Source of the DNA: a virus
Direction: 5' to 3' (one strand)
Length of the DNA: 64,000 nt
Virus record (IMG/VR): IMGVR_UViG_3300045684_000009
Coordinates: 62,001-126,000 of that record
Position numbers and translations under genes: made by a program. The notes under the pieces are model-generated. The model worked only from the letters and a program-made list of their open reading frames with translations. It did no database searches and was not told the origin of the DNA. Each line of letters opens with the position of its first letter. Position 1 is the first letter of the stretch. Of the stretch, positions 28,100 through 49,502 are shown piece after piece.

Positions 28100-28291
28100 T
28101 TAATCGCACCAAGGCTCTCCTTTATCTAATTCTCCAAATAATCTGTTAGATAATCTACGAGCCCTGTTAATAACTTCGTCATCTAATAACTCCTTGTTCT
28201 CGTCAATGTATTGTGTTAATGCAACACATATTATAACTACATCTTTATAGTGTAATTTTGTTGTTACTTTTTCATATATGTCGTATCCCAT
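28100..28291 (-). CDS. Hypothetical protein, 63 aa
   Basis: Not recognised. Helical, with a YIDENKELLDDEVINRARRL helix. Its start touches the stop of the CCA-enzyme gene. Confidence 0.6.
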   Translation of the reverse strand: MGYDIYEKVTTKLHYKDVVIICVALTQYIDENKELLDDEVINRARRLSNRLFGELDKGEPWCD

Positions 28292-29019
28292 TACTTCTTA
28301 TTTGTCATTTGTAATTTCCAGCCTTTAGGAAACAGTTGTTTATATATTTCAAAATTCCACATTTGAAGACATTCTAACCACCACAAAGTATCATACGTAT
28401 TGTGGTTAAACATCTTATTCAATTCAGAGTAAACTCTTTCAGTAGATATTACTGAGAAGTCTCCATTGTAATCTTTGATAGCGTCTTCTATCTCATCTGA
28501 CAATTCAAACTCTTTAGTACATGCAAATCTCAATGCTCTCAATATACGTAGAGGGTCATCGTTGAAAGTCACATGAGCGTCAATAGGTGTTTGTAAAATT
28601 CGGTTAGCCAAATCTTCCATCCCACCAAACAAATCAATAATCTCACCATCCTCCGCTTTAGCCATTGCATTAACAGTAAAGTCTCTACGCTCTAAGTCAT
28701 CTCTCAATGTACCTAGTTCAACTATAGGAGTCCTTGTTCCCTCCACATATCCAACTTCTTTTCGGGCAATAACAAAGTCAGCAACACCACTATGAGTATG
28801 GTCATCGGGAAACAAAGCACGAACAGTATAACAATTTTCCGTAACCAAAAAGATTTCATATCCTTGTGTTTCTAAATGTTCAGCAAATTTGCGTGTAACT
28901 GTATTGACATCCCATTTTGTGGGGTCATCTAATACAACCGAATAATCTATATCCTTAGATTGTAATCCTAACAATTGGTCTCTTATCCGACCACCAACCT
29001 CATATAGTGTATATTTCAT
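28291..29019 (-). CDS. cca: CCA-adding enzyme / poly(A) polymerase family tRNA nucleotidyltransferase
   Basis: 242 residues from ATG 29019 (MKYTLYEVGGRIRDQLLG). Class II nucleotidyltransferase signature: VGGRIRD...DIDYSV near 8-28. Also RRDFTVNAMA near 110, FGGMEDLANRIL, and DDPLRILRALRFA near 155 (RNA-binding helix). Adds or repairs the 3'-CCA of tRNAs. It is shorter than cellular enzymes because the C-terminal body and tail are reduced. The phage tRNA-Gln does not encode CCA, so such an enzyme (host or phage) is needed. Overlaps the upstream stop codon (TAATG). Confidence 0.85.
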   Translation of the reverse strand: MKYTLYEVGGRIRDQLLGLQSKDIDYSVVLDDPTKWDVNTVTRKFAEHLETQGYEIFLVTENCYTVRALFPDDHTHSGVADFVIARKEVGYVEGTRTPIVELGTLRDDLERRDFTVNAMAKAEDGEIIDLFGGMEDLANRILQTPIDAHVTFNDDPLRILRALRFACTKEFELSDEIEDAIKDYNGDFSVISTERVYSELNKMFNHNTYDTLWWLECLQMWNFEIYKQLFPKGWKLQMTNKK

Positions 29020-29270
29020 TACCAACTCACTCTAAATGTAATTTCATCGCCAATATTGACTCGCATTTTACCCCTAACCTTGCGCAAATGCTCACAAGCT
29101 TGTTCACATGCCATATCTAAAGGCATATCATCATCTTCTGTAAATCCAACGTATTCTGAAACTGTATGGTTGTAGGTTTCACCGTCATAAAAGTCTAAAT
29201 CCTTCCATAATTCAATTACGTGTGGGGGGAAACCATCTTGAAATATTTCATATATCCTTGTTTGTTTCAT
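29019..29270 (-). CDS. Hypothetical acidic protein, 83 aa
   Basis: Not recognised. Small alpha/beta protein with an acidic middle (TEDDDMPLDMACEQACEHL). Overlaps neighbours by single bases. Confidence 0.6.
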   Translation of the reverse strand: MKQTRIYEIFQDGFPPHVIELWKDLDFYDGETYNHTVSEYVGFTEDDDMPLDMACEQACEHLRKVRGKMRVNIGDEITFRVSW

Positions 29271-29626
29271 TATGCTCCTAATTTTAATACATCAGTAAAT
29301 GAAGGTTCGGATATTGAGATATTCCAACTACCCTTAATCTCACCAGCCTTAGTGATAGTCTTCCACATATCTCCATGCTCCTCACCCTCACCCTCTACGA
29401 AGAAGAAGTGGTTGGGGAATAACTTTGAAAGCTCCTTAATATTTGATTCATGATCGTACCATTTCATGTCATCACCAAGTTCACCTAAATCAATACTGTA
29501 CTCAGATATATCTTCTAACCTACGTTCTATTAGGTATGCCTCGTCAGATGTATAATCCAACTTTTCAAATTTACCATTTGTCTTTTCAGTGTAAACGTTT
29601 ACTATAAATCTTGTGTAATATCCCAT
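29270..29626 (-). CDS. Hypothetical protein, 118 aa
   Basis: N terminus MGYYTRFIVNV and acidic body resemble a phage family I know by pattern (MGYYT...); function unknown. Likely a single alpha/beta domain. Confidence 0.6.
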   Translation of the reverse strand: MGYYTRFIVNVYTEKTNGKFEKLDYTSDEAYLIERRLEDISEYSIDLGELGDDMKWYDHESNIKELSKLFPNHFFFVEGEGEEHGDMWKTITKAGEIKGSWNISISEPSFTDVLKLGA

Positions 29627-29627
29627 G

Positions 29628-30173
29628 TTATGCTAATTTAAATTGTTTTAAAAATGTTCTTAAATCGAGAATACTTTCTCCACCCATTTCTGTTAAATAC
29701 TTTTCCCACGCATCTGGAAAATCAAGAGATAAAGCTGTAGGTTCTTGGTCAGATTTATATACACCTTTAGAATCAGGGTCTAACCACTTATTAAAGTCAG
29801 GATACTTATCATAATCCCACACTCTCTCGTCAGCAAGAAATACTACTGCGGTGAGTGCGTCATTTAAGTCTGGCTCATGAAATGTAGCGTGAGGTACGTC
29901 ATTATTAACTAACCAAGCATGCTGCTGATTTAAAGTGCCGATACTAAACCCTTCATCGTCTATTTTACTATTAGTAGTACCACCATTAAGTATAATGAAT
30001 GTTTTATCATCCTCTGCCCATATATTGCAATCATGAACACAGCCCGCATTCAGGCAATCATAATTGTCCATCATATACTCAACAACAGCATGTCCAAACT
30101 GTATACCTTGTTGAATAGGTGAAAGGTTGTACGGTACGAGTCCGTACATTCTGTATTTTAGTTTATCTGTCAT
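29628..30173 (-). CDS. PTH2-like peptidyl-tRNA hydrolase
   Basis: 181 residues. The layout LSPIQQGIQFGHAVVEYM near 16-33, then KTFIILNGGTTNSK, then VPHATFHEPDLNDALTAVVFL follows the archaeal/eukaryotic-type PTH2 fold: a G-x2-x2-Q-x-x-H-A helix, a beta strand, and a strand-helix with an E/D-P-D pair. The family releases peptides from peptidyl-tRNA. A C-terminal extension of about 60 residues is extra. Neighbours are tRNA and RNA repair genes, which supports the call. No catalytic proof. Confidence 0.5.
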   Translation of the reverse strand: MTDKLKYRMYGLVPYNLSPIQQGIQFGHAVVEYMMDNYDCLNAGCVHDCNIWAEDDKTFIILNGGTTNSKIDDEGFSIGTLNQQHAWLVNNDVPHATFHEPDLNDALTAVVFLADERVWDYDKYPDFNKWLDPDSKGVYKSDQEPTALSLDFPDAWEKYLTEMGGESILDLRTFLKQFKLA

Positions 30174-31246
30174 AAGTTATCTTTTCTAATTGTTAATAAT
30201 AAATTCTGTGTAAACTTAGGCTTAACCTCGCGAGGTAAATTAGATGCATCAAATGCTGCTTTAATATCGTCAATCATAGACTCAGCATCGTCAAGTAATT
30301 CGTCATACTTCATCTCACCTCTACGGATTTGAAGTAGATATTCTCTCTCAGGTCTACGCACCACAATACCTTTACCATCTGCAATGTCCTTAGACATATT
30401 TAGAAGTCTCATACAATGCATCATGTTTTTGTGGTCGTATCCTTGCTCTCCCTTTAGATTATCTCTATATCTAGCTTCATTCCTATTCTCTAACCATTCA
30501 GTGTATTCTCTATAATCCTTACAATGCATTGAGTATGCATCTACATCAAATCTAAGATACGTTAGGTGACAAGCGTCTTTAGGTATGCTCACAGTTCTAA
30601 CATTGTTAGAATCGTCACCAATAATACCACCATCCCCGTCATCCATGTCGTACATAGAGTATGTATTTGGGATGTTATTAACTTTAGCTAAACCTATATA
30701 CTTTTGAGCAATTATGGGGTCACCTGCCCCATTAATGTCGCACCATTTTTTAAAATTTACAGTGTGTTCGTTGTACATTAATACATAACAAAAATCAAGT
30801 ACATCCTTTCTAGTCATTGCTTTAGCCTCTTGGTTTATTTTCTTATTTAAACCTTTTGCCTTTTGTATTTGAGAGTACGCGTATCCTGTATACGTATGTT
30901 TTAACTTTGTAGTGATGAATTTGGCTCTAGTTTCTTCAGGGAAGTATTTAACCCAATCATCTGTTGTAATACGTACACAGTCGTCGGGTAAATTAAACAA
31001 CTCCTGCATATTAGGATTACCTTTCGATAATAGTTCTATAAATCGACCTATTTCATAATATGTTTCATCGTTGGTGTTGTCGGATATTTGAGGAATATAT
31101 CTACCCGCAAGTACTTCATCTGTGGGTAGAATAAAAACACCCCTCACGTCAACGTCACTACCTTCTACGTTTGTCCCATAAGCATGTGAACCCGATATAC
31201 CTTCGAATATAATGCGCCCCGAAGTTCTTAATTGTTCAATATTCAT
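30170..31246 (-). CDS. RNA-repair-type nucleotidyltransferase (RlaP-like, pol beta fold)
   Basis: 358 residues. The pol beta nucleotidyltransferase motif lies near 18-36: GSHAYGTNVEGSDVDVRG (GS...D-x-D). A long helical C-terminal part follows. Resembles the RlaP family (RNA repair pathway DNA polymerase beta family), which clusters with RNA ligases. Two shorter relatives lie at 32583 and 33379 and the ligase at 34523. Likely adds nucleotides to, or modifies, broken RNA ends. Overlaps both neighbours by 4 bases. Confidence 0.75.
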   Translation of the reverse strand: MNIEQLRTSGRIIFEGISGSHAYGTNVEGSDVDVRGVFILPTDEVLAGRYIPQISDNTNDETYYEIGRFIELLSKGNPNMQELFNLPDDCVRITTDDWVKYFPEETRAKFITTKLKHTYTGYAYSQIQKAKGLNKKINQEAKAMTRKDVLDFCYVLMYNEHTVNFKKWCDINGAGDPIIAQKYIGLAKVNNIPNTYSMYDMDDGDGGIIGDDSNNVRTVSIPKDACHLTYLRFDVDAYSMHCKDYREYTEWLENRNEARYRDNLKGEQGYDHKNMMHCMRLLNMSKDIADGKGIVVRRPEREYLLQIRRGEMKYDELLDDAESMIDDIKAAFDASNLPREVKPKFTQNLLLTIRKDNL

Positions 31247-31797
31247 ATTTGTGATTTAAAATAATTTAATGATTTTACAACCCTGGTGTCAAAAACATCT
31301 TCAGATGTATACCGTTTAATTATGTGGTCCACATATTCTGATTTATGACGCTTCCAAGTACTCACAGCTTCTCTTTTTTCTGAAAATACACCGATATGAC
31401 GCTCCAACCCGTCGTGATTCATTCTAACCCTGTATTTACCATTTTTAATAGTTATTCCTGTAGGTAGTTCTCGATTCAGGGATGAGTGAAGATTTAAGCA
31501 GTTATTAACATATCTAGGTATAAATACGCAAACATCAGGGTCGTATCTTTTATTACCTGGCTTCAATAAATCCTTATCTAAATGATACCCATCTATATAG
31601 TTAGAGTCCCACCATTGTTTAAATTTAGAGAACGATAACCATTCCGAACAGACGGAACAATCAACGTATGTGGGATACTTATTGAGAGATTTAGGTGAAT
31701 ATACTCTAAATAATATAGATTTCCAAATTGCATATTCTTTTAATTTAGACACCCCTCCTCCATAGTCATTCATACCTACGCCGTATACCAATCCCAT
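31243..31797 (-). CDS. HNH-type homing endonuclease with AP2-like domain
   Basis: About 184 residues from ATG 31797 (MGLVYGVG). The N-terminal half has the phage HNH-like pattern CSVCSEWLSFSKFKQWWD...HLDKDLLKPG...DVCVFIPRYVNN. The C-terminal half GITIKNGKYRVRMNHDGLERHIG resembles an AP2-type DNA-binding domain. This combination is typical of free-standing homing endonucleases that spread between phages. It lies inside the RNA repair operon between unrelated genes. Confidence 0.65.
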   Translation of the reverse strand: MGLVYGVGMNDYGGGVSKLKEYAIWKSILFRVYSPKSLNKYPTYVDCSVCSEWLSFSKFKQWWDSNYIDGYHLDKDLLKPGNKRYDPDVCVFIPRYVNNCLNLHSSLNRELPTGITIKNGKYRVRMNHDGLERHIGVFSEKREAVSTWKRHKSEYVDHIIKRYTSEDVFDTRVVKSLNYFKSQI

Positions 31798-31801
31798 AAT
31801 A

Positions 31802-32107
31802 TTATAATGTTGATTCTTCAATGAATAAATACTCTCCTGAATCTAACCTACGTCTACAGTCATCTAATCCACAGTTTAGAAACTCATTTCTATATTTACC
31901 TGTAGTTCTTGAATAGTTCCAAGCACCTGTCAAGAAAACTGTATCGCTGTTGTCTTTTATAGCGATTATACTATCATATGATTTGAACATACTACCATTA
32001 TCAAATTCGATAATTATTTGCTTTGGTGTTAAGTTGCGACCACGCGTTCGCATGTTCCTAGCACTCTTAAATGTACCTAACGTTTGTACTACTGTTTTAA
32101 GTTTCAT
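31802..32107 (-). CDS. Conserved phage protein, 101 aa
   Basis: Pattern GRNLTPKQIIIEFDNGSMFKSYDSIIA...WNYSRTTGKYRNEFL...RRLDSGEY matches a small phage family of unknown function (possibly DUF8033, from memory). Beta-rich N-terminal part. Confidence 0.7.
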   Translation of the reverse strand: MKLKTVVQTLGTFKSARNMRTRGRNLTPKQIIIEFDNGSMFKSYDSIIAIKDNSDTVFLTGAWNYSRTTGKYRNEFLNCGLDDCRRRLDSGEYLFIEESTL

Positions 32108-32586
32108 ATTCCATATTTTGAATAGAGCTGTTTAAACTCTAAGTTACCTAATAAAGATTCTAATTGTTTCTGTTGTTTTCTAATTACTTTCCCTCCCACA
32201 CATCTATCTCTATACATATCACGTTCTAAACATTGGTCAACCGAAGTTTTCATTAAAAATATATGAGGGTCGAAGTTAATGTTACCAATTAAAGGTTTAA
32301 GATAAGATATCTTTAAATTAGTAGCATCTATGATAACATTTCTATCTGCACATGTGGCGGAGTCAAGTATGCCATTAATTACATCAGTAACTAATTCTTC
32401 CCTATAACTTATATCTTTAGAGTTATAGTAATCTTTATGTTGATGGTCTTCTAACCCCCACAATGCACTTCTAATACTATCTCTTGATACTATTATAGTG
32501 TGAGAGTGTTCTTTCATCAACCTCTTTGCTTCTGTAGACTTACCTGAACCTGATACGCCTATAAGTATAAACATTTTATTCATCAT
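32104..32586 (-). CDS. Polynucleotide/RNA 5'-kinase (T4 Pnkp kinase-like, no phosphatase domain)
   Basis: 160 residues. P-loop GVSGSGKSTEAK near 8-19. VSRDSIRSALW near 34-44 and IIDATNL near 82 are like the T4 polynucleotide kinase lid and base motifs. The HAD 3'-phosphatase domain of T4 Pnkp is missing, so the separate HAD protein at 21527 or the metallophosphoesterase at 27422 could supply 3' end healing. Next to nucleotidyltransferases and near an RNA ligase. One dispersed repeat copy (32229-32248) lies inside the gene. Confidence 0.75.
   Translation of the reverse strand: MMNKMFILIGVSGSGKSTEAKRLMKEHSHTIIVSRDSIRSALWGLEDHQHKDYYNSKDISYREELVTDVINGILDSATCADRNVIIDATNLKISYLKPLIGNINFDPHIFLMKTSVDQCLERDMYRDRCVGGKVIRKQQKQLESLLGNLEFKQLYSKYGI
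32229..32248 (+). repeat. Dispersed palindromic repeat copy 5
   Basis: AACATTGGTCAACCGAAGTT, inside the kinase gene (encodes TSVDQC on the minus strand). Confidence 0.85.
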
Positions 32587-33386
32587 TCTGATTTTAAATG
32601 TAAGCTAATATATTGTCTTAATTGTTTCATACCAGTTAACTGGCCACCTATTGATATTTCATGATGTAAATTATCAGCATCTAACTTGTCTTTCTCTCTC
32701 TTTCGAATCCTCTTATCAATCCACGCCAATAACTCATCTTTGTTAACAGAACCTGGCGTACTGTAATCTCCCGACTTAGGTGCTAAACTCTTAAACTCAG
32801 AATATTTGTCTTTAAATAATGTATGGTATCTAGCATGTATAACCTCCCACAATTCATTCCTTTCATGTTTATCAGCCAAGATATATAATTCTTCAAGTAA
32901 CCACTTATACCTTGCTGGTTCTACGATGTCACCATGTCTTATTATCTGAATTCCGAAATCAAATATACGAATGGCGTGGAATATAGACTTTATAGCTAAC
33001 ACCTTGTCATAATCTGCAGATACAGTTAACTTCTTATTTCCCTTAACCCACGCACCGTTGGCAACTGTCGAGAACGACTTCCTAAGTTTTCCTAAATCAA
33101 TATCTATAGGTCCATAATTTCGATCACTATCAAGGTATATACATTCAATCGCCCTAACGTCATGAGCGTCAACTGCTGCATCGAAATCAACCTTAGTAAA
33201 TATATGTATTGTAATATTACCTTCATCTATTAGAGAACCGTAATCGGGGTAAGGCTCACCGTCTGCTAATACTAATATGTAGTCATGGTCAGAACCTTTT
33301 CGTTGAGTACCGTAAGTAAATGAGCCAAACTTAAATATAGAATCGAAGTTTAATGTGGATGTTACTTTATCTAATTTATCATGCAT
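32583..33386 (-). CDS. Predicted nucleotidyltransferase (pol beta fold)
   Basis: 267 residues. FKFGSFTYGTQRKGSDHDYIL near 18-38 is a GS...D-x-D nucleotidyltransferase motif; a helical C terminus follows. Overlaps the kinase (4 bases) and the next nucleotidyltransferase (8 bases). One of three such genes in this stretch; likely works on RNA ends together with kinase and ligase. Confidence 0.7.
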   Translation of the reverse strand: MHDKLDKVTSTLNFDSIFKFGSFTYGTQRKGSDHDYILVLADGEPYPDYGSLIDEGNITIHIFTKVDFDAAVDAHDVRAIECIYLDSDRNYGPIDIDLGKLRKSFSTVANGAWVKGNKKLTVSADYDKVLAIKSIFHAIRIFDFGIQIIRHGDIVEPARYKWLLEELYILADKHERNELWEVIHARYHTLFKDKYSEFKSLAPKSGDYSTPGSVNKDELLAWIDKRIRKREKDKLDADNLHHEISIGGQLTGMKQLRQYISLHLKSE

Positions 33387-34074
33387 ATCTAAATTCTCTT
33401 ATATTATTTGAATCTAATAATTGTTGTAACAACGGATCATCACAATCCTCAATGTAATAGTTTTCTAACTCTCCTTTATTGTACATATCGTTCATGGTCT
33501 TCCTCAAACCATCGTGTCTGTTCTTAAGGCGAACTACCATTTTATGGTTGTTGTTGTATAACTCTATTTGTTTTCTAACGCCCTCCAATGTGGGAAGTTC
33601 ATTCTTTAGTAGACAACTAGCACAGTATAAACCTCTAGCAGCGTGTCCTAACTTCTTATCGTGTTTCCAATTCCTTATATCTCGTTTAGCGAAACCTAAA
33701 TAAGCCTTAATTACTTTGTAAGTTCTTACGTGAGCTAAAGCTGATTCATCTAACAGGCTACCTTTTTTAAATAAAGACCTATTCCACATAATTACATCAC
33801 TGTTTATAGTGGATTCACCCGAGGTTTGATTGCGGGAGAATTGATCCATTGTTGTCCAAATATAATCAGTGTTATCTTCTGTATATTGGAATTGATGAGA
33901 GTTTGGGAACATCCCTAAGTCATCATTCCACGAAGTTGGTGGTCGATAAACACACAATAAATCCAGATCACTATCTCTACTATTAGTTCCATATAACCTA
34001 GAACCTATTGTTACCTTCCTGTTTGTGAAACTATCTAATCTTAGATGTTCCTCTTTAGTTATTTTAATGTTCAT
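33379..34074 (-). CDS. Predicted nucleotidyltransferase (RlaP-like)
   Basis: 231 residues. TIGSRLYGTNSRDSDLDLL near 22-40 is the GS...D-x-D motif; later helical parts (HAARGLYCASCLLKNELP) resemble those of RlaP-type enzymes. The start touches the NADAR gene stop. Third nucleotidyltransferase of the RNA repair group. Confidence 0.7.
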   Translation of the reverse strand: MNIKITKEEHLRLDSFTNRKVTIGSRLYGTNSRDSDLDLLCVYRPPTSWNDDLGMFPNSHQFQYTEDNTDYIWTTMDQFSRNQTSGESTINSDVIMWNRSLFKKGSLLDESALAHVRTYKVIKAYLGFAKRDIRNWKHDKKLGHAARGLYCASCLLKNELPTLEGVRKQIELYNNNHKMVVRLKNRHDGLRKTMNDMYNKGELENYYIEDCDDPLLQQLLDSNNIREFRYA

Positions 34075-34526
34075 CAGATTCTATTTAGTTTACGGAGTCT
34101 ATGTAATTGTCTGCAAAACTCTCTTTCAGTTAATACGGTTTTGGATTCATCATTATGGCCTATGTTGTGGGTAAATACAGCATCCCCTGACGCCTCTAAA
34201 TCCTTTCTAAATTGTTCATTAGTATTTAATGCATCGTATGCTCTAGTTAGTAGGTCTTGATAATTATCTGACTTCCTTTTGTATGTTATATCATTCCACC
34301 ATAACATCTGTAACGATTGCCACCTCTTATTTCTACCCTTACCTTTTCGTTTAGCAGCAATACCTACGAGTGTGCATGTATATTTCTGAGCATTAGTGTC
34401 ATGATATTTAAACGCCTGTAATAACCCCTCCATAGACGCACACTCTACCCCGTCAAATATAAAAGACCTAGCTGTGAAGTTACTCAACCTTGCAGCAACT
34501 CCTTTATTACTCTTTCCTATGTTCAT
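34074..34526 (-). CDS. NADAR (YbiA-like) family protein
   Basis: 150 residues. LSNFTARSFIFDGVECASMEG near 14-34 followed by LLQAFKYHD is the NADAR entry motif (S-N-F...G...S-x-E). The end has the family-like DLEASGDAVFTHNIGHND. NADAR proteins bind ADP-ribose-type ligands. Some remove ADP-ribose from guanine bases in DNA, reversing DarT-type toxins. Lies between the RNA ligase and nucleotidyltransferases. The C-terminal active-site part is divergent, so activity is uncertain. Confidence 0.6.
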   Translation of the reverse strand: MNIGKSNKGVAARLSNFTARSFIFDGVECASMEGLLQAFKYHDTNAQKYTCTLVGIAAKRKGKGRNKRWQSLQMLWWNDITYKRKSDNYQDLLTRAYDALNTNEQFRKDLEASGDAVFTHNIGHNDESKTVLTEREFCRQLHRLRKLNRI

Positions 34527-35866
34527 ATACTTTCTTGTTCTTCCATGTCCACAAGTTTATCAGAGTCTTTTACAATTCCCTCAAGAACTTTGTGTGCAAA
34601 TGATTTATGTTTAAATAATAGTGGAGCTTCACCACCTCTGTCTATTCTAACTACAACACCTTCTCTTAATGTATTAGGGAAGAAGTCACATGGTACTTTA
34701 GTAGTTTCATACTCCACATAACTCTTAAAGTTTGTGAGTCCACCACTAACAACTAATTCGAATGCCCCTGATTCATTAGTTAAATAACCAGATATAATCT
34801 CAGGGCAGTGTTCAATCTCCATTTCTTCACATCTTCTCTTAACTCTCTCCCACGAATAATCAACGCTACTTCCTTGCTCGTTAGTTAATGTCATTCTATA
34901 TACGAAGATATTGAACTCACCTGCATCGCAACCATACTGCATTGGAATCTCTGCACCATAGAACTCTATCATTCTATCATACTCTTCCTTACTAAAGAAG
35001 TCTTTCAACTTTCTAGTAACATGTGTAGGTTGTATGTTCTGACCAGAAGGCGTCTGACCGACTATCTCAAAGTAAACAGTCTCACCCTTACAAAGCTTAC
35101 CTTCAACCTTCTTAGATGCTAATGACCATATGTCATCATCATAGAAGTCTTGATTACCTTCTCTCTTATCACCTTCTATGGTTTTAACAACCTTTCTAGA
35201 ACCAACTACGTACCCATATTGAGGGTCAGGGGTTGTACCAAATAACTTATGATACCATTTCTTCTTCTGTACTATTGGTAGATAACCAGTACGTCCCGAA
35301 GTTCCATGAAGTTTACAAGTCATAGTGACGTGGTCACCGTCCTTCAACTTATCATAATACCTCATCAAATGGTCTGTACTCATATGCTCTTTAAACAATG
35401 GAACTCTATTCTCTCTAGCTTTACCTAACTTACCTAGATTGGCACGAGTAGTAGCATACTTCCTAACATACTTCTCACAAATAGTAACTCCGTTTATCTT
35501 ATGGTCTTGAACACCATTGTCTAACTCTATAGTTCCTATAACGGGTTCTAATTGTGCGAATGATAGAAATAGACATGTACACTGTACACCTTTCAACCTT
35601 ATAGGTTTGATTCTACCATTGTCTCCAAGGTATCCTACTTTAGTCACATCTTCATTCAACTCTTTATGTCTATACATATTGAGTCTAGAGGCTATTTCGG
35701 GGAATAACTTGGATTCACAATCAATTATAATACCTCTTGTACCTATTGGGTTTTCAGATATAGATACAATGGCTATCTCACCGCACATCTCAGTCCAAAC
35801 TATTCGGTCTGCTCCCTCTATTGGATTGTGGGTTTTTATTTCTGTTACAATAAATTCTCCTGTCAT
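34523..35866 (-). CDS. RNA ligase (ATP-dependent, Rnl5-like layout)
   Basis: 447 residues from ATG 35866, which shares a base with the upstream stop (TAATG). Ligase motifs: motif I TCKLHGTSGR (adenylated Lys) near 195; motif III-like VYFEIVGQ near 270; motif IV EGVVVRID near 405; motif V LFKHKSF near 420. The ~150-residue N-terminal domain before motif I suggests the Deinococcus-type RNA ligase (Rnl5) layout rather than T4 Rnl1. Seals broken RNA; with the kinase and nucleotidyltransferases it would repair cleaved tRNAs. Confidence 0.8.
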   Translation of the reverse strand: MTGEFIVTEIKTHNPIEGADRIVWTEMCGEIAIVSISENPIGTRGIIIDCESKLFPEIASRLNMYRHKELNEDVTKVGYLGDNGRIKPIRLKGVQCTCLFLSFAQLEPVIGTIELDNGVQDHKINGVTICEKYVRKYATTRANLGKLGKARENRVPLFKEHMSTDHLMRYYDKLKDGDHVTMTCKLHGTSGRTGYLPIVQKKKWYHKLFGTTPDPQYGYVVGSRKVVKTIEGDKREGNQDFYDDDIWSLASKKVEGKLCKGETVYFEIVGQTPSGQNIQPTHVTRKLKDFFSKEEYDRMIEFYGAEIPMQYGCDAGEFNIFVYRMTLTNEQGSSVDYSWERVKRRCEEMEIEHCPEIISGYLTNESGAFELVVSGGLTNFKSYVEYETTKVPCDFFPNTLREGVVVRIDRGGEAPLLFKHKSFAHKVLEGIVKDSDKLVDMEEQESI

Positions 35867-36090
35867 TATAATGTAGGCGTTGTGGCAGATGTAATCCACC
35901 TATTAAGTAATTGGGCTTCCATGTTGTTTTTAAAATCAGCATCACCCATGTCAATTATTGGTATTTCAAAATCAATTCTAGTGAAGTCACCTAAATTGCA
36001 GACATAATGGGCTACACCTTTTCTTATGTAGCTAAAGTAAGCAATAGGTTTCTGCTTGTATAAAGCTTTTTTAATTTCTGTATTTGTCAT
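35866..36090 (-). CDS. Conserved phage protein, 74 aa
   Basis: Pattern TEIKKALYKQKPIAYFSYIRKGVAHYVCNLGD...FEIPIIDMGDADF fits a small phage family of unknown function known by pattern. Likely beta-rich. Confidence 0.65.
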   Translation of the reverse strand: MTNTEIKKALYKQKPIAYFSYIRKGVAHYVCNLGDFTRIDFEIPIIDMGDADFKNNMEAQLLNRWITSATTPTL

Positions 36091-36254: not shown

Positions 36255-36503
36255 TTATTTCCTTTTTAATTGTTTAATTTCATCTTCTGTCAACGACCAC
36301 CAATCATTATTATCACTGTGTTCATAATCTAATATATAATCACAATAATCCCAATCATTAATAATCTCTCTAGGGTGCGGCAAGTCCATAGGATCAACTC
36401 CTGAATTTAAAAGAGTCTTCCAATGACTTCTCACTATTCGCCAATATATATCTTTCTTATATGCTTTATCTTTGTATATCGCCTTTTTGTAACTTCTCGA
36501 CAT
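36255..36503 (-). CDS. Conserved MSRSYKK-type protein, 82 aa
   Basis: Begins MSRSYKKAIYKDKAYKKDIYW, a start I associate with a widespread phage protein type; the rest is acidic and Trp-rich. The 5' part overlaps the polymerase 3' end by 38 bases. Function unknown. Confidence 0.65.
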   Translation of the reverse strand: MSRSYKKAIYKDKAYKKDIYWRIVRSHWKTLLNSGVDPMDLPHPREIINDWDYCDYILDYEHSDNNDWWSLTEDEIKQLKRK

Positions 36504-38460
36504 CTTTTTGATTTATAGTGTTAATTAATTCATGACATTGATCTATATAATAGTCATAGTTAATTCCAGAATATCTATAAGAACCTCTTTTAGCTTTAGG
36601 TGATTCTTTACCGTGTATTATCTCAGTACGCGTCACCGTTGGTAATGGTGTTACTAGAAAACCCTTATTTACAGCTTGTAAGTTGTTAACTCTATTATCT
36701 AAGAAATGTTTGAATATATTAAATCCATCTTTCGATATATAATATCTGACTACTCTACCTTCAAACTTCTTCCTCTCAATCTTAGTTACTATATCTTCAG
36801 AGGCTTGTATACCTACATATTCAAAATTAGACTTATTCTTAATACCTATAAGGAAGTCATGTATATTGTTGTGGGTTAGTATAGTATCTTCAACATTCAC
36901 CCCATTAATATAATATTCAGATAAAGCTTGCGGTATTATAGATGCTGAAGGGTTCTTATGATATGACCCTTTAATATCATCATATGTCTCAAACATACCT
37001 TTACGTTTGACATTACCCTCCAAATCAATCGATAGATAGTTGTTAACATCTTTGATAACCATTTTAGAATACTGAACTTCTTCTAATATAAGACCTGTCA
37101 GTGATTCAAAGCTTTTACAAGCGTTTCTAAGAATCTCTAAATCCACCTTCTTAATCATCATTGTTAATCCGTCAGTATTCACTTGAATAATCTGACCTAA
37201 TTGTGAAAGTCTGTCACATAACATTGACAATAATAATTGACCATTTACTGTGGTGGAGACGGTACATTGAGGGTCAAACACTATACTATATTTGTTATTG
37301 AATAACCCATATATTGAGTTAAGTACAAGTTTTAAAGATTTATTCTTAATACTCCCTTTAGGGTGTCGCTTCCTTTCATTATATAATTTCTCTAGAATTA
37401 TAGTAAACTTCTTAGATAGATGTTCAGGGAATATGTCACCCGTAATAGCCAACCAAGGATAATATGATGCGAAATCTAAATCAATTAGTATTTCATCAGA
37501 TTTAGGTTCGTAACAACCAGGTGAAATACAAGCATGTAATCCGCCTGCGCCATACTCATATGTTAACCCCCCAAATTCCATAGAGAATCCTAAAACCTTT
37601 TTACCTTTTAGTTCAATCTCACCATTTGGATTCTTTCGAAGTACCTTACTTTGAAAATGTCTTAAAGCTTCATTAAATTCAGGATTCTTGAAATTGATAT
37701 AGTTTCTAATCAAATCTTTAACCACTATTTGTTCTCGATCTGTTTTGAGCTTCTTAAGTTGAGGTTTAGTCAATTTCAACTCTTCTGACAATATCTCTTT
37801 TAACATGAAAGAAGATATTGAGGGTTCAGACATGTTAATCAGTCTAGGTTCTTTATATTCTCTATATAAACCTTTCCTTAAATCTATATCTTCTTGACAT
37901 GTTAGATAAAAAGCATACGTGTCTTCTACATCTTTCTTATTATATTTGATAATAGCGTCTACCTTTTTTTGAGTATCAATCATCTCTGTAAAATGATAGG
38001 GTAAATCTTGCATACTTGGGCGGCGCATGGAAAAACCTAACCATTTCAACGAAGTAGTCTTAGCACTACCTATACCGTAATGATTAACACTCATTAAATC
38101 AAGTTCAGTTAACTTCTTCTTCCACTCGTCGTATTCACTATCCCACCTATCAGTTTTCAACCTACCTATAACACTTTGAGCAAATTCGAACACTTCTGTA
38201 CCTGTGTGTAGGTGACCTCTCAATATATGTTCTAACACTTGACCATCAAACTTTAAATTGTTATAGCCTACGAGTGAAGGTTTCGTTTTAAGCCACTTTA
38301 GAAGCTCTGTGCGGTCATTTCTCCCCCCAACTATGTCATGCATCACAAAGTCTACAAAGATACCTGTGTGAGGTTCTAACGCCACCACAGTGAATAAGTT
38401 GGCATATGTTTCTATATCATATATCCATACATTCTTGTTTATGTCTATGTTTGGTGTCAT
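36466..38460 (-). CDS. Family B-like DNA polymerase
   Basis: About 664 residues from ATG 38460 (MTPNIDINKN). Exonuclease motifs: WIYDIETY near 13 (Exo I), GYNNLKFDGQ near 69 (Exo II), YNKKDVEDTYAFY near 155 (Exo III). Polymerase motif A LIDLDFASYYPWL near 335, motif B LKLVLNSIYGLF near 375, motif C-like QVNTDGLTMMI near 430. Motif C keeps one Asp (NTDG instead of DTDS), a variant seen in some phage enzymes. The core replicase, with primase at 57780 and SSB at 19996. Confidence 0.85.
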   Translation of the reverse strand: MTPNIDINKNVWIYDIETYANLFTVVALEPHTGIFVDFVMHDIVGGRNDRTELLKWLKTKPSLVGYNNLKFDGQVLEHILRGHLHTGTEVFEFAQSVIGRLKTDRWDSEYDEWKKKLTELDLMSVNHYGIGSAKTTSLKWLGFSMRRPSMQDLPYHFTEMIDTQKKVDAIIKYNKKDVEDTYAFYLTCQEDIDLRKGLYREYKEPRLINMSEPSISSFMLKEILSEELKLTKPQLKKLKTDREQIVVKDLIRNYINFKNPEFNEALRHFQSKVLRKNPNGEIELKGKKVLGFSMEFGGLTYEYGAGGLHACISPGCYEPKSDEILIDLDFASYYPWLAITGDIFPEHLSKKFTIILEKLYNERKRHPKGSIKNKSLKLVLNSIYGLFNNKYSIVFDPQCTVSTTVNGQLLLSMLCDRLSQLGQIIQVNTDGLTMMIKKVDLEILRNACKSFESLTGLILEEVQYSKMVIKDVNNYLSIDLEGNVKRKGMFETYDDIKGSYHKNPSASIIPQALSEYYINGVNVEDTILTHNNIHDFLIGIKNKSNFEYVGIQASEDIVTKIERKKFEGRVVRYYISKDGFNIFKHFLDNRVNNLQAVNKGFLVTPLPTVTRTEIIHGKESPKAKRGSYRYSGINYDYYIDQCHELINTINQKDVEKLQKGDIQR

Positions 38461-38461
38461 A

Positions 38462-39067: not shown

Positions 39068-39094
39068 CAATTTAAGACCATTTAACACAATGTT

Positions 39095-39114
39095 AACATT
39101 GGTCAACAGAGGTT
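39095..39114 (+). repeat. Dispersed palindromic repeat copy 6
   Basis: AACATTGGTCAACAGAGGTT in the leader of the plus-strand structural operon, 30 bp after the -7 box, between divergent operons. Confidence 0.85.
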
Positions 39115-39188
39115 TACCACCGCCCCTAACCTTAAAATGCGGTGAGTCTACACTTTGTAGATACCGTAAAACTAAAAACGAGAAAAGC

Positions 39189-39719: not shown

Positions 39720-39728
39720 AACATAAAC

Positions 39729-40121
39729 ATGGCAGATTATCAGCTAATAAACACATTAGAATATCAAACTAGATTATTAGGATGTATTAAAGAATCGGTT
39801 AGCACTTTAAGCGGCGGTGACGTTGTTGCACCCATTGGTGGAACGATAGTAGGAACAATTCAAAATGCAGTAGCAACGCTTACTACAGGAGATTTAACTG
39901 GTGCTTCTTCTGATATAAGATCAATAAATGTACAACTGGAATCTTCAACTCTTGTTGAAGTGTTGGTTACATTTACAGATAACTCAACTACCACGCATAA
40001 TATGTTTGGTGGTAGTTACACTTTAGAGTTAGACAATAATCAAACGGCGGTGAAATCAGTCACATTAACAGAAATTGATGGAACATCTACTAGAGCCATT
40101 ATTAATTACATAAGTAAATAA
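39729..40121 (+). CDS. Putative structural protein, 130 aa
   Basis: Thr/Ser/Gly-rich, beta-type sequence (VVAPIGGTIVGTIQNAVATLTTGDLTG) after a short helix. Typical of small decoration or fibre proteins; no specific family seen. Confidence 0.55.
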   Translation: MADYQLINTLEYQTRLLGCIKESVSTLSGGDVVAPIGGTIVGTIQNAVATLTTGDLTGASSDIRSINVQLESSTLVEVLVTFTDNSTTTHNMFGGSYTLELDNNQTAVKSVTLTEIDGTSTRAIINYISK

Positions 40122-40130
40122 AAAACAAAT

Positions 40131-41078
40131 ATGATAAATCTTTTCATGATGATATTTATAGCAGGACTTATTTCGGGAGTTATCGGAGTAAGTATTACAA
40201 AAAAAGGTAGAGCCTTTTTTGTTGACCTTTGGGTTAAGTTACGATATCTATTCTCAACTAAGGTAGACATAGAGTCAGCAAACTACGGATGTGTAGATGG
40301 CGATACAGAAGCTTTTAGAGTATTAGGTTCAATAAAACCTATTGAGGGTTATATCACTTGGTATTTAGATACTGACCACCTATCTAAACGAAGCATCTCT
40401 AGAGAAGACGCTATCAAAGGATTAAAGAAAGGTTTTGGTATACTAGCTCCACACATGAGTAACGTTGAATTTAAAGAAGTTCTCAGTAAAGAAGGTGCTC
40501 AAATAGTTATAGGTTTTTATAAGAATGGCGAACAAGGTTTACCAAAGGCTTTCTCTCCAAATACATTAGCTTACGCATATTTAGCAAATAATACAGATGC
40601 GTTAGGTATAGTTTCAGATATGTTTTTTAATGAACGCTTCTTGTGGGCATTATCTCATGGGGCAGGACGAATTAACTTTACCAAAGTATTCGTACATGAA
40701 GTGTTACATTCATTAGGTATGTATCATAATACAGCAGATAAGTCTAGCATACTATACCCATCGTATTCGCCTAATAATACTATCAAACTAGCAACTGACG
40801 ATATTAATGGTTTAAAGTTTCTTTATGAAAAATATGAAGGACCAACTGATACACCTGACGACGATGATGATTCAGATGATGGAAATGGTGGTGGGCAAGA
40901 CGAAGATAACTGCGCAAAGCATTTAGAAAGAATTACAGTGTTAAATAAGGAGCTGGCAGCATGTAGAACAAAGGCTGCTACTGATATAAGAAAGCTAGAA
41001 GACACTATTAAACAAAAAAACAAAGACATAGCTGTATCGTCTAAAATCATACAGTCTATAAAGTCGTTATTAAAATAA
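40131..41078 (+). CDS. Membrane-anchored matrixin-like zinc metalloprotease
   Basis: 315 residues. N-terminal transmembrane segment (residues 1-21), basic stop-transfer, then a metzincin domain. VHEVLHSLGMYH near 187-198 gives the HExxHxxGxxH zinc site. SSILYPSY follows at the place of the Met-turn with Leu in place of Met, and DDINGLKFLY matches the end of matrixin domains. Then comes an acidic linker (DTPDDDDDSDDGNGGG) and a C-terminal coiled coil. No prodomain Cys switch is obvious. It lies among structural genes, so it could be a virion protease or an enzyme placed in the host envelope. Confidence 0.75.
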   Translation: MINLFMMIFIAGLISGVIGVSITKKGRAFFVDLWVKLRYLFSTKVDIESANYGCVDGDTEAFRVLGSIKPIEGYITWYLDTDHLSKRSISREDAIKGLKKGFGILAPHMSNVEFKEVLSKEGAQIVIGFYKNGEQGLPKAFSPNTLAYAYLANNTDALGIVSDMFFNERFLWALSHGAGRINFTKVFVHEVLHSLGMYHNTADKSSILYPSYSPNNTIKLATDDINGLKFLYEKYEGPTDTPDDDDDSDDGNGGGQDEDNCAKHLERITVLNKELAACRTKAATDIRKLEDTIKQKNKDIAVSSKIIQSIKSLLK

Positions 41079-41082
41079 AACA

Positions 41083-42555
41083 ATGAGCATAAATAGTTCT
41101 TATACAAATAAGTCAAATATAACTTCTGAGTTGTTGTATTCCAACTATGCGGCAACGCTTGCTGACACATCGGAACTCGATAGCGGTTGGTTAGACGTAA
41201 GTGGTGTAGATAAAATACAATTTTCAGGTAGGTCAGATACAGCAGGTCTTAATCTTGTAATTGATTCAAGAGGTGACTCGTCACAAACTGTATTGACTAC
41301 TAATACCATATATTCAGATGGTCCGTTCTTCCTATTCAACGTCCCAGCTAGACAAAACGAAATGAGGTTTAGGTGGCAGAACAACACGGGAGGATCTGTA
41401 AACGATGTAACTTCGGAAGTAAAAGCGACTTACGGTAGTTCCGACAAATTATCTGTATTCCCAGTTGGAGTTCAACCATCAGATTTCTCACAAGCAGCTT
41501 TAGTGCAATCTGTACTTAGAGGACAAGAACCTGTAAACGGTACATATAAACAAGTACAAGTTAATCAATCAGGAGCGATGCTTACTTCCGATTTTGGTAC
41601 AGAGGTTTCTCGAGGATTATATGAAGGTACAGGTATTAATGTTAAATTTGGTAGAAATAGCGATATAGACATAGGAACACCAGAGGATGTGTGGGAAGGT
41701 GGTGGAATTTACACTGGGTTTCCTACATCTGAAGAGGCAATTCAAGTGTTTAGTTCAAGCGGTGCGGACGTAGGTAGTGTTTTATCAACAGAAGTAGCAA
41801 CAAGTGGGACTAGTACTACAATGACATCAATAGGAGCAACTTTTGTAAGTTCAGGCGTAACAGTAGGTGACGTTATGGTAAATGACACCAAAGGAGAACA
41901 TGGAATTATATCTAATGTTACAGAAGATACATTGACTGTTTATAGTATGTCAGGAGGTGTTACTAACGAAGCAGGAGACAATGTTAGAGTAGTTACTAAT
42001 TCATCTACAGGTGTTTCATTAATAAGACTGCAATCGTTGCTTGATGGTAATTTTATTAAGCAAACGGACGTCTACGTGGTGACGAATGGTGTGACAAGTG
42101 TATCTACACCACTTAGTAATTATACTAGATGTTCTAGAGTAAAAGCTATCCATGCAGGAAGTGGCGGAGTGAATGCTGGTAACATAACTGTAAGACAAGC
42201 CACCACTACAACTAATGTTTATTCAACAATGCAAGTAGGGTATGGTCAATCTACTGTATCAGCAACATCTACACCTTCTGATAAGATATACCTTATAAAA
42301 TCAATTGATGTAGAAATGGCTAGATCTAACGGTTCAGCAGGTTCTGCGGTAATTCAATTTCTTGTTAGAGAAAGAGGTGGTGCTTGGAATGCAAAAAGAG
42401 TATATGATGTTACTGATTCAGTATCAGTAAATACTAAATTTGTAGGAGGGATTGTAGTAAATCCTATGTCTGACATAAAGGTGCGGGTAACTTCTGTATC
42501 AGATAATAACACATCTGTGGAAGCCTCGTTTGAATACTTTATAATAGACATTTAA
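41083..42555 (+). CDS. Virion structural protein, 490 aa
   Basis: Ser/Thr/Gly/Val-rich beta protein throughout, with segments like DVWEGGGIYTGFPTSEEAIQVFSS that occur in phage appendage or capsid-associated proteins. No signal peptide or enzyme motif. Largest protein of this module, probably a fibre or decoration component. Confidence 0.6.
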   Translation: MSINSSYTNKSNITSELLYSNYAATLADTSELDSGWLDVSGVDKIQFSGRSDTAGLNLVIDSRGDSSQTVLTTNTIYSDGPFFLFNVPARQNEMRFRWQNNTGGSVNDVTSEVKATYGSSDKLSVFPVGVQPSDFSQAALVQSVLRGQEPVNGTYKQVQVNQSGAMLTSDFGTEVSRGLYEGTGINVKFGRNSDIDIGTPEDVWEGGGIYTGFPTSEEAIQVFSSSGADVGSVLSTEVATSGTSTTMTSIGATFVSSGVTVGDVMVNDTKGEHGIISNVTEDTLTVYSMSGGVTNEAGDNVRVVTNSSTGVSLIRLQSLLDGNFIKQTDVYVVTNGVTSVSTPLSNYTRCSRVKAIHAGSGGVNAGNITVRQATTTTNVYSTMQVGYGQSTVSATSTPSDKIYLIKSIDVEMARSNGSAGSAVIQFLVRERGGAWNAKRVYDVTDSVSVNTKFVGGIVVNPMSDIKVRVTSVSDNNTSVEASFEYFIIDI

Positions 42556-42582
42556 AATTAAAAAACAACAAAAGCAAGACGA

Positions 42583-43026
42583 ATGAAAAAAACAATATTA
42601 GAAAGAACAAAAGATTTTGACACAGATAAGTTAAAGAAACCAAATCCACTTGATGTACTACATGATTTAAGAATTGTGAGAGATGCATTGGATAATGCTA
42701 TAGAAGATGCTGCGAAAGTTGCGGCGGAAACAAAGACTTCATTAGTTAAATTACTAGGCGATCACCGCAATCTATCAGTTGAGTTTGGAAACCTTGCTAG
42801 TTCAAGTAAGAACTATGCAAAACAACAAGCTGAGAACGCCTTTGTAAGAGCACATAAAGATGCGTTGGAACTATCCAAGGTGTTAGAGAAGAAGATATCG
42901 CACATCACTTCTCAGAGAGTTACACGAGAAGATTTAGAAGCTTTAAGACTTAGGTTGTTAGACTTAGAAGGTCGTAAGGGTTTCTTGAGTAGGTGTTGGA
43001 ATAAGATTAAAAGTATATTCTCATAA
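42583..43026 (+). CDS. Coiled-coil protein with amphipathic C terminus, 147 aa
   Basis: Almost fully helical with long heptad stretches (ALELSKVLEKKISHI, EALRLRLLDLEG) and a C-terminal amphipathic motif GFLSRCWNKIKSIFS. Last gene before the strong terminator. Function unknown; possibly an internal or tail structural protein. Confidence 0.55.
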   Translation: MKKTILERTKDFDTDKLKKPNPLDVLHDLRIVRDALDNAIEDAAKVAAETKTSLVKLLGDHRNLSVEFGNLASSSKNYAKQQAENAFVRAHKDALELSKVLEKKISHITSQRVTREDLEALRLRLLDLEGRKGFLSRCWNKIKSIFS

Positions 43027-43066: not shown

Positions 43067-43444
43067 TTACTGCACGTAGCTTGCAGGGATTTTACAAAAC
43101 TTTCCGTCAGTCTTCTCTGCGATAATAGGGTACTTCCTAGATCGTGGTGCGATGCCTACGATTTTATATTTACGACCATTCAACTCAACCTCGGTCAACC
43201 ATTGTTGGGGAGTCAAACCATAGGAACTACAATGTCTCATGTAGTCAGCTTTGAAAGATAACAACTCCCCATCCTTTTGATTATCCGCCGTACCAATCAC
43301 TGCTTCCAGTTTAGTTCTGAATCCATAGTCATCATAACTAATGTTACCTAGACTTAACTTAATAGAGTGCTTTGTTTCTAACGCCGCAACTGCTTTTGCA
43401 AAGTCTGTTCTGAATTGTTTAAAACTTGCTTTGTCTGTTTTCAT
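43067..43444 (-). CDS. Conserved phage protein, 125 aa
   Basis: Pattern FRTDFAKAVAALETKHSIKLSLGNISYDDYGF...YKIVGIAPRSRKYPIIAEKTDGK is a phage family known by pattern, of unknown function. One dispersed repeat copy (43187-43206) encodes part of it. Confidence 0.65.
   Translation of the reverse strand: MKTDKASFKQFRTDFAKAVAALETKHSIKLSLGNISYDDYGFRTKLEAVIGTADNQKDGELLSFKADYMRHCSSYGLTPQQWLTEVELNGRKYKIVGIAPRSRKYPIIAEKTDGKFCKIPASYVQ
43187..43206 (+). repeat. Dispersed palindromic repeat copy 7
   Basis: AACCTCGGTCAACCATTGTT, inside the 125-aa gene; read in a different frame (encodes QWLTEV). Confidence 0.8.
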
Positions 43445-43648: not shown

Positions 43649-43948
43649 TTATTTTATTAATTTATTAATCATTAATTCCCACTCACCATTCTTATAACTG
43701 TTAGTATACACTCTAGCTGTATCAAACTTCATCTTTATTTGTGCGTAACGAAAGTCAGGGTTTTTAAGTACCGCAGCTTCAAACTCTGAATCCATATACT
43801 CTAAAACTCTAGTATCACTAATAGCCATACCATAATGGCGTGGTGTTAAATAGCGAACCCACTTCTCATTAAACTCAGTTGAAGTCATGTTAGCTTTCTT
43901 CATCATGTTAATTAATTGCTGATGAGCACTCATTAGTATTATGTTCAT
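43649..43948 (-). CDS. Hypothetical protein, 99 aa
   Basis: Not recognised. The region MTSTEFNEKWVRYLTPRHYGMAISDTRVLEYMDSEF looks like a small helical, possibly DNA-binding protein. The start overlaps the Thg1-like stop as ATGA. Confidence 0.6.
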   Translation of the reverse strand: MNIILMSAHQQLINMMKKANMTSTEFNEKWVRYLTPRHYGMAISDTRVLEYMDSEFEAAVLKNPDFRYAQIKMKFDTARVYTNSYKNGEWELMINKLIK

Positions 43949-44766
43949 AACCTTATGTTGTGTTGTTTATAAATGTTTGGATCGTTTAGGGTCATTGGTG
44001 TTTCTATAGCACCCCAAAACCATCTCACCACACTATCTAAAGGTATCTCAGTATGGCTATCGACCAACTGACCATCAATAGTCATTTGCTTTACAATGAA
44101 CGAACCTCTCTTCTTACTATAGTGTAGGTCATTCCAATTGTGACCTTTCTGAAAACACAACTCCTGCACTTCATCTCCACTCTTCTTATGTAGTTCTTTG
44201 TGTGAGTATAAGGATTGACCTAACATACTGATAGAGTTCTTCACCGCATCTCGTTGTCTTGCATGGAAGTAATTAGGTACTTCTTCTTTTGGTATATTGA
44301 ACACTCTTGAGTCGAAGAATGCTAAAGGCATATTATCAATAGACTCTAGTATAAATTCCCCATAATTACTCTCTTCTGATTTACCCCAATCGTTTACTCT
44401 CGATATTCTTAACTGATTAAACTTTGCGGTACATAAGGAAGCACTTATACTTGTCATCTTCTGTACTGAGTAATCAAACCAAGCCTGAGTCTTAAGATTC
44501 ACATAATCTGTAATAAGGATAGATATCTCATCACTTTGAACATACGCACATTTAGCTCCCTCAATCTTTGAGCATAAATATGTAGCAGTATCTCGCATAT
44601 CTTCAATCAAACCTTCGTCAAAAGGTTTATCAAGCCCTCGTGTATATGTGTGGAAAGCTTTACCATCGAGTCTCATTATCACAGGAGTCCTTCTAGTTAG
44701 GAAAGTCCTGCTACGGGTTTCGTAATTAGCTTTCATTCTTTGCATAATTGGGTCGTTCTTACTCAT
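43945..44766 (-). CDS. Thg1-like (tRNA-His guanylyltransferase family) 3'-5' polymerase
   Basis: 273 residues. Family landmarks: FLTRRTPVIMRLDGKAFHTYTR near 19-40 with a metal-binding Asp; CAYVQSDEISILI near 72-84 with the second catalytic Asp; QKMTSISASLCTAKFN near 100; YFHARQRDAVKNSISMLGQ near 165. Thg1-like proteins add nucleotides to the 5' end of RNA, and bacterial members repair 5'-truncated tRNAs. Sits in the accessory region away from the other RNA repair genes, which suggests separate acquisition. Confidence 0.88.
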   Translation of the reverse strand: MSKNDPIMQRMKANYETRSRTFLTRRTPVIMRLDGKAFHTYTRGLDKPFDEGLIEDMRDTATYLCSKIEGAKCAYVQSDEISILITDYVNLKTQAWFDYSVQKMTSISASLCTAKFNQLRISRVNDWGKSEESNYGEFILESIDNMPLAFFDSRVFNIPKEEVPNYFHARQRDAVKNSISMLGQSLYSHKELHKKSGDEVQELCFQKGHNWNDLHYSKKRGSFIVKQMTIDGQLVDSHTEIPLDSVVRWFWGAIETPMTLNDPNIYKQHNIRL

Positions 44767-48470: not shown

Positions 48471-48484
48471 ACATGATGAACCTT

Positions 48485-48983: not shown

Positions 48984-49017
48984 TGTTATAAGTTTATGTG
49001 GTCTGCGCGACCTGTTA

Positions 49018-49227
49018 TTATTGTAATATTTTATTTGGGTCAAATGGTTCATTATACCAATCTTCTACTACATCGTCAACTTGGAATGAATCACATATGT
49101 AATCATCATCAGGTATACTAAGGAATTTATTTAAAGCTTTGTCGGCTGCTTCTTGTAAGTTTTCAGCATCTACAGTGAACACTTCTACTTTCTGATATAT
49201 TATAGGTATGTCATAACTTTTGCTCAT
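49018..49227 (-). CDS. Hypothetical protein, 69 aa
   Basis: IIYQKVEVFTVDAENLQEAADKALNKFLSIPDDDYICDSFQVDD resembles a small phage family in which a strand-helix-strand unit predominates. Function unknown. Confidence 0.6.
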   Translation of the reverse strand: MSKSYDIPIIYQKVEVFTVDAENLQEAADKALNKFLSIPDDDYICDSFQVDDVVEDWYNEPFDPNKILQ

Positions 49228-49239
49228 ATTTATTATATT

Positions 49240-49404
49240 TTAGTCATTTAATTCATCAACTAATTCGTCGATATTAATTTTCAATTCTTCAATAGAGTTT
49301 GCGAACTCCATGAATGCGTCACAATCGTCTATACTGTACGCTTCGTAGTACCCCCACTCATTAGCAACAGTATCTATATTATAACCTTTGTATTTCTCTG
49401 TCAT
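49240..49404 (-). CDS. Hypothetical acidic protein, 54 aa
   Basis: ATG-to-TAA frame in the gap before the tRNA. Acidic C-terminal helix (SIEELKINIDELVDELND) and aromatic N-terminal part. Not recognised. Confidence 0.55.
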   Translation of the reverse strand: MTEKYKGYNIDTVANEWGYYEAYSIDDCDAFMEFANSIEELKINIDELVDELND

Positions 49405-49431
49405 GATTTCTATCTTTTAAAATAAAAGTAG

Positions 49432-49502
49432 TTAGAGTAGGAGGATTCGAACCTCCGATATCAGCTCCAAAAGCTGATGTGTTACCACTACACTATACTC
49501 CA
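49432..49502 (-). tRNA. tRNA-Gln (anticodon UUG)
   Basis: 71 nt on the minus strand. Acceptor arm TGGAGTA/TACTCTA with discriminator A, D arm GTGT/ACAC, anticodon arm TCAGC-TTTTGGA-GCTGA (anticodon UUG, reading CAA), variable loop TATC, and T arm GGAGG-TTCGAAT-CCTCC. U1-A72 and the acceptor start are usual for tRNA-Gln. The 3' CCA is not encoded. CAA is the frequent Gln codon of this AT-rich phage. Confidence 0.95.

Follow-up and report, generated by a model that had tools for sequence, protein, structure and literature searches.

A continuous phage operon with three pol-beta nucleotidyltransferases and a predicted role in RNA repair

Introduction

How might a phage mend a tRNA that has lost nucleotides as well as being cut? 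RloC-type tRNases excise a nucleotide, and simple heal-and-seal repair then fails. The question is raised by a 64,000-nucleotide stretch of DNA (hereafter the window), corresponding to positions 62001-126000 of the 133,828-base virus record IMGVR_UViG_3300045684_000009. The window carries an operon encoding an Rnl5-like RNA ligase, a polynucleotide 5'-kinase, a gp30.3-family protein and three pol-beta nucleotidyltransferases (NT1, NT2 and NT3), together with a CCA-type enzyme and a PTH2-fold protein. We describe the families, folds and conserved motifs of these proteins, the continuity of the operon and its conserved linkage in other genomes. They point to a phage counter-defence system for RNA repair, most likely acting on tRNAs cut by host nucleases, that would clean, refill and seal broken ends. 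We consider this reading probable.

Results

A continuous operon of overlapping genes

The repair operon spans positions 28291-35899 of the minus strand and its genes overlap. It belongs to a longer minus-strand string, running from 38977 to 28291, in which each gene overlaps the next or is separated from it by a gap of at most 1 bp. In order of transcription, its products include DNA polymerase, the Rnl5-like RNA ligase, gp30.3, NT3, NT2 and the 5'-kinase. These are followed by a small protein of no known family, the HNH endonuclease, NT1, the PTH2-fold protein, two unknown proteins and the CCA-type enzyme. A metallophosphoesterase gene comes after the CCA-type gene. The genes are listed in Table 1.

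A first-pass annotation, made from the sequence alone, had placed a tRNA repair kit in a single segment. This holds for the operon genes, which are contiguous. It does not hold for the Thg1-like gene and tRNA-Gln, which lie 8-13 kb off, across a block of plus-strand genes (39090-43026). The same annotation had named a CCA-adding enzyme, a Thg1-like enzyme, a 5'-kinase, an Rnl5-like ligase, three pol-beta nucleotidyltransferases, a PTH2-like protein and tRNA-Gln. All of these assignments are borne out below at the level of family or fold. It had overlooked the gp30.3 protein and the HNH endonuclease.

Table 1. Genes of the operon and related features of the window.
Feature	Position	Strand	Evidence or remark
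DNA polymerase	36466-38481	-	in contiguous minus-strand gene string
Rnl5-like ATP-dependent RNA ligase, divergent	34523-35899	-	phrog_968 E 3e-56
gp30.3-family protein, phage NADAR (guanosine de-ADP-ribosylase fold)	34074-34526	-	PF08010 E 3e-49
NT3, RlaP-like pol-beta nucleotidyltransferase	33379-34074	-	PF10127 28.4 bits
NT2, divergent pol-beta nucleotidyltransferase	32583-33386	-	phrog_388 E 5.5e-9
Polynucleotide 5'-kinase, kinase domain only	32104-32586	-	AAA_33 E 1.5e-19, phrog_505 E 3.4e-25
HNH endonuclease	31243-31821	-	phrog_953 E 1.2e-61
NT1, RlaP-family pol-beta nucleotidyltransferase	30170-31246	-	PF10127 E 4.2e-19
PTH2-fold protein, putative peptidyl-tRNA hydrolase	29628-30173	-	phrog_3668; AlphaFold2 model
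Class II CCA-type tRNA nucleotidyltransferase, short form (head + neck, 244 aa)	28291-29025	-	PF01743 E 9.9e-19, PF12627, phrog_24229 E 4e-65
Calcineurin-like metallophosphoesterase, candidate 3'-end phosphatase	27422-28066	-	phrog_547 E 2.5e-43, PF00149
Thg1-like 3'-5' polymerase, bacterial TLP type	43945-44766	-	PF04446 E 1.2e-26
tRNA-Gln (TTG), 3' CCA not encoded	49431-49502	-	ARAGORN + Rfam

Three nucleotidyltransferases of the pol-beta type

NT1 and NT3 both score above the gathering cut-off of 23 for the RlaP model PF10127 (69.6 and 28.4 bits respectively); NT2 does not match this model. The motif GS...DxD is invariant in 17 NT1 sequences and in 15 NT3 sequences. Across 87 NT2 sequences the GS, DxD, KxxKK and KSxxHxxR motifs are conserved, with GS and DxD invariant. 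A relative of NT2 in Taibaiella passes the PF01909 cut-off.

NT3 is linked to RNA ligase and PNK in phages and bacteria

We compared the surroundings of 15 distinct NT3 loci, one of which is the window itself, with those of 79 control PTH2 loci. An RNA ligase gene was found within 2 kb at 9/15 NT3 loci and 1/79 PTH2 loci (Fisher p 4e-8), using a ligase profile built partly from NT3 neighbours; two such ligases were identified independently by Pfam. A PNK gene lay within 2 kb at 7/15 and 4/79 loci (Fisher p 1.5e-4).

The arrangements are compact. The gene order is ligase-NT2-NT3-PNKP, with overlapping genes, at locus L029, and Rnl5-like ligase-NT3-PNKP at L031. Locus L033 has ligase-NT3-metallophosphoesterase-kinase-only PNK. 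In Tenacibaculum phage pT24, an annotated RNA ligase and Pnk are near NT3. Bacteria also possess such operons. That of Taibaiella chishuiensis (L121, 3819-13842), on a contig of 1.78 Mb, reads RlaP-NT1-ligase-NT2-NT3-PNKP-Hen1-PNKP ligase-PNKP. It thus contains four pol-beta nucleotidyltransferases, two RNA ligases, two PNKPs and Hen1, along with an exonuclease. The ligase-NT3 pair is kept in two further bacterial genomes, one of which has PNKP. NT3 is rare in bacteria, with 2 strong matches among 399 genomes of the order to which Taibaiella belongs, Taibaiella itself being one.

The remaining genes show linkages of their own. In Raoultella phage Ro1 the CCA-type, PTH2 and NT1 (RlaP) genes are neighbours. 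Two uncultivated phage contigs carry compact CCA-PTH2-Thg1-ligase clusters (L238, 2771-9007, and L244, 5240-10448). The ligase at L238 qualifies as a TIGR02306 (Rnl5-type) equivalog. NT1, PTH2 and ligase occur together at L158 and L242.

The ligase, the kinase and candidate phosphatases

The operon ligase has both parts of the Rnl5 architecture, an N-terminal OB domain and a KxHG-type adenylyltransferase domain. The KxHGT motif is invariant, and the OB domain matches that of Naegleria Rnl5 (NgrRnl, 5cot; E 1.5e-5). Its score against TIGR02306 (E 1.5e-4, 20.8 bits) falls short of the equivalog cut-off of 151. By sequence it is an Rnl5-like relative rather than a TIGR02306 equivalog. A scan of viral contigs with the single ligase sequence found no relative; relatives were retrieved only with an alignment-based query.

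For the kinase, the nearest solved structure is the Clostridium CthPnkp kinase (4gp6, E 5e-7); Pnkp1 (4xrp) and T4 Pnkp also match. The 160-aa protein has no fused 3' phosphatase domain (PF25109). This domain is present in the L029, L031 and L121 relatives. The gene order at L033, described above, supports the metallophosphoesterase as a replacement for the missing phosphatase domain.

End-healing phosphatases of two kinds, a metallophosphoesterase and a HAD enzyme, had been suggested by the first-pass annotation. The former is present, just outside the annotated interval (28291-49502). No HAD phosphatase was detected among the proteins scanned in that interval. Outside it, the product of 24151-25041 has an N-terminal dATP/dGTP pyrophosphohydrolase domain and a weak C-terminal match to NT5C (HAD; E 0.026). 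This is possibly the HAD protein that was meant.

A NADAR fold for gp30.3

The gp30.3 gene lies between those for the ligase and NT3, with overlaps of 1-4 bp. An AlphaFold2 model of its product (pLDDT, the predicted local distance difference test, 94.2) has YbiA, Geobacter NADAR and Phytophthora NADAR as its top three matches in the PDB. Alignment to NADAR with hhalign gave 14.7%, and the fold assignment rests instead on the structure comparison. It agrees with the published placement of gp30.3 proteins as a phage subgroup of NADAR (PMC11125620, PMC11833690). H120 is invariant in 32 sequences and would correspond to the phage-type histidine described in PMC11125620.

Proteins for tRNA ends and translation rescue

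The CCA-type enzyme is short. Its DxD, RRD and (E/D)DxxR-type motifs are invariant across 17 relatives. The C-terminal body and tail domains are absent from the 244-aa protein, while the long relatives found have 384-425 aa. We considered, and rejected, a truncated or misread gene because short forms of 244-249 aa recur (10 of the 17 relatives). Given a protein without body and tail, CCA specificity is putative. The record has two tRNA genes, tRNA-Gln in the window and tRNA-Met at G000 position 9775. Both appear to lack an encoded CCA; in tRNA-Gln, no CCA follows the acceptor stem. Hence, they would offer the CCA-type enzyme an immediate substrate.

Sequence-level searches of Pfam and the PDB gave no match for the PTH2-fold protein. 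Its AlphaFold2 model (pLDDT 85.7) has best PDB matches that are all Pth2-family structures, namely MJ0051, AF2095, PH1539, SsPth2, Bit1 and relatives, with probability up to 1.00. Judged by eye, Q25 and H28-A29 agree with the catalytic motif and the motif lysine appears as Q21.

The Thg1-like assignment is supported by a match to BtTLP, the Bacillus member of this family (4kgk, E 6.6e-53). The catalytic carboxylates D34, D79 and E80 are invariant.

Other genes and searches

The HNH endonuclease gene sits between NT1 and the kinase and overlaps the next gene by 20 bp. It is probably a homing element outside the repair function. With the operon as query, megablast returned no match among named phages. 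PADLOC reported no defence family, bar a weak match of the metallophosphoesterase.

Elsewhere in the window, at 20707-23670, a ribose-phosphate pyrophosphokinase-like gene adjoins a nicotinamide phosphoribosyltransferase gene (phrog_619, phrog_448). We take this pair to resemble a phage NAD+ resupply pair of the NARP1-like kind. Such pairs are often near the PTH2 and ligase loci of other phages. The product of 43067-43444 has a weak HicB-like family match (E 0.0059).

Discussion

A proposed pathway and the points against it

We infer the following pathway. Phage gp30.3/NADAR would take ADP-ribose off guanosines. The 3' end would be cleared by a phosphatase, for which the metallophosphoesterase is the probable candidate, and the 5' end phosphorylated by the kinase. 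NT1, NT2 and NT3, singly or together, may then put back nucleotides missing from the broken 3' end, the kind of loss that RloC causes, in a division of labour among the three that is conjectural, as is the order of steps. The Rnl5-like ligase would seal. The CCA-type and Thg1-like enzymes could restore tRNA termini, and the PTH2-fold protein could release peptidyl-tRNA where ribosomes have stalled. The first-pass annotation had likewise envisaged RNA repair in response to tRNA-targeting nucleases, with refilling before sealing. Both the gene content and the linkage in other phages and bacteria support this reading well.

A more specific version would make NT2 and NT3 unrecognised pol-beta families that, with RlaP, fill multi-nucleotide gaps in cleaved tRNAs. 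This would be coupled to removal of ADP-ribose by NADAR and be common to phages and some Bacteroidota. We regard this extension as tentative, and on present evidence doubtful.

Several observations weigh against an RNA repair system of this scope. No phosphatase domain is fused to the kinase, and the gene for the candidate phosphatase lies 4 kb from that of the kinase, albeit on the same strand and nearly contiguously. NT2 passes no Pfam cut-off (18.5 bits against NTP_transf_2) and, when viral loci were sampled more broadly, only 11/79 had a ligase gene counted within 2 kb. Hydrolase activity of the PTH2-fold protein is uncertain, given Q21 in place of the canonical Pth2 lysine. Finally, gp30.3 rarely adjoins repair genes elsewhere, and the Thg1-like gene and tRNA-Gln are outside the operon.

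Alternative explanations

The last of these points is also consistent with two unrelated gene sets lying side by side. One would be a general operon for RNA end repair (ligase, NADAR, NT3, NT2 and kinase). The other would be translation-upkeep genes (CCA-type, PTH2 and Thg1) serving the phage's own tRNAs, both of which require CCA addition. The linkage data fit in part: NT3 is linked to ligase and PNK, and PTH2 mainly to CCA, Thg1 and NT1. However, all of the genes except Thg1 and the tRNA are held in a single overlapping string. Moreover, the clusters at L158/L242 and L238/L244 join members of both sets. Two sets are a real possibility, though we do not favour it.

NT2 and NT3 might instead not fill gaps. 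Their role could be to modify either RNA ends or proteins, in the manner of the MenT and MntA nucleotidyltransferases, and so regulate or block repair. Consistent with this, NT2 has sub-threshold Pfam matches only, and a weak match to the MntA antitoxin. In addition, a third acidic residue near DxD was not recognised by eye in the alignments. Set against this, NT2 and NT3 share operons with ligase and PNKP in both phages and bacteria, and NT3 scores above the RlaP cut-off. No partner toxin was seen. The first-pass annotation had allowed that the nucleotidyltransferases might prove to be antibiotic-type or toxin-antitoxin enzymes. This was not found, since NT1 and NT3 exceed the RlaP cut-off and NT3 recurs beside RNA ligase and PNK. 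We think a modifying role unlikely.

Least probable, to the point of being a long shot, is a main role against RNA or DNA ADP-ribosylation, with ligase and kinase mending the ends left behind: the overlaps of gp30.3 with ligase and NT3, the removal of ADP-ribose from guanosine in DNA and RNA by T4 gp30.3 (PMC11125620, PMC11833690) and a ligase-PARG-kinase operon in Deinococcus (PMC11833690) speak for it, but other annotated ligase-NT3 operons lack NADAR and gp30.3 is seldom near repair genes.

RNA repair is the reading we carry forward. Refilling of lost nucleotides has long been predicted, and operons in which several nucleotidyltransferases accompany ligase and kinase open this step to direct testing. 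Going by its NADAR gene, the same operon may also reverse RNA ADP-ribosylation. Seen again in bacteria and in unrelated phages, these genes form a defined set for reconstitution.

Comparison with known systems

The first-pass annotation had held the pathway to be undescribed as a whole. This claim fails. Section 3.4.9 of Iyer et al. 2021 (PMC7824862) groups jumbo-phage tRNAs, RNA ligases, kinases, phosphatases, RlaP, the CCA-adding enzyme, Thg1 and PTH2 into a single complement for repair and rescue, and so covers every component listed. There, RlaP refills nucleotides lost, in RloC-type cleavage, prior to ligation, and PTH2 acts in rescue. As in the window, ATP-dependent ligases, kinase, calcineurin-like or HAD phosphatases, RlaP, CCA, Thg1 and PTH2 are predicted to work jointly against tRNA cleavage. 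The window differs in its smaller record (134 kb), mostly single contiguous operon, three RlaP-like nucleotidyltransferases, Rnl5-like ligase and NADAR. Linkage of the NT2/NT3 type is not mentioned in that section.

Much of the set is present in named phages. In Vibrio phage 2.275.O, an Rnl5-like ligase, RlaP, NT2, NT3, PNKP, CCA and PTH2 are dispersed over the genome; Thg1 and gp30.3 were not detected there. Xanthomonas phage XacN1 has RlaP, NT2, PTH2, CCA, Thg1 and kinase; Iyer et al. (PMC7824862) also credit it with three Rnl2-family ligases. Given these phages and the description by Iyer et al., the repair set as a whole is not new.

T4 Pnkp-Rnl1 shares the heal-and-seal logic of 5' kinase and ligase, and T4 also has gp30.3. 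Conversely, the window has a kinase-only protein, an Rnl5-like ligase rather than Rnl1, and additional nucleotidyltransferase, CCA-type, PTH2 and Thg1 genes. In the Deinococcus operon DRB0098-DRB0100 (ligase, PARG and phosphatase-kinase; PMC11833690), genes for a ligase, an ADP-ribose hydrolase and a kinase are likewise together. There, the hydrolase is PARG rather than NADAR, and nucleotidyltransferases are not mentioned. A further comparison is with the Taibaiella operon and the Pnkp-Rnl-Hen1 systems. The Taibaiella operon has relatives of NT1, NT2, NT3 and the kinase alongside an RNA ligase. It adds Hen1, a PNKP ligase, a second PNKP and a further RlaP; its ligase is of T4 Rnl1 type, and no NADAR was among the genes scanned.

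What is unusual here is the occurrence of three RlaP-like nucleotidyltransferases and NADAR in a compact operon with a bacterial counterpart; no description was found in the literature surveyed, which did not extend to the primary RlaP paper (Burroughs and Aravind 2016). The addition to the published picture is the linkage of these nucleotidyltransferases with ligase and PNK.

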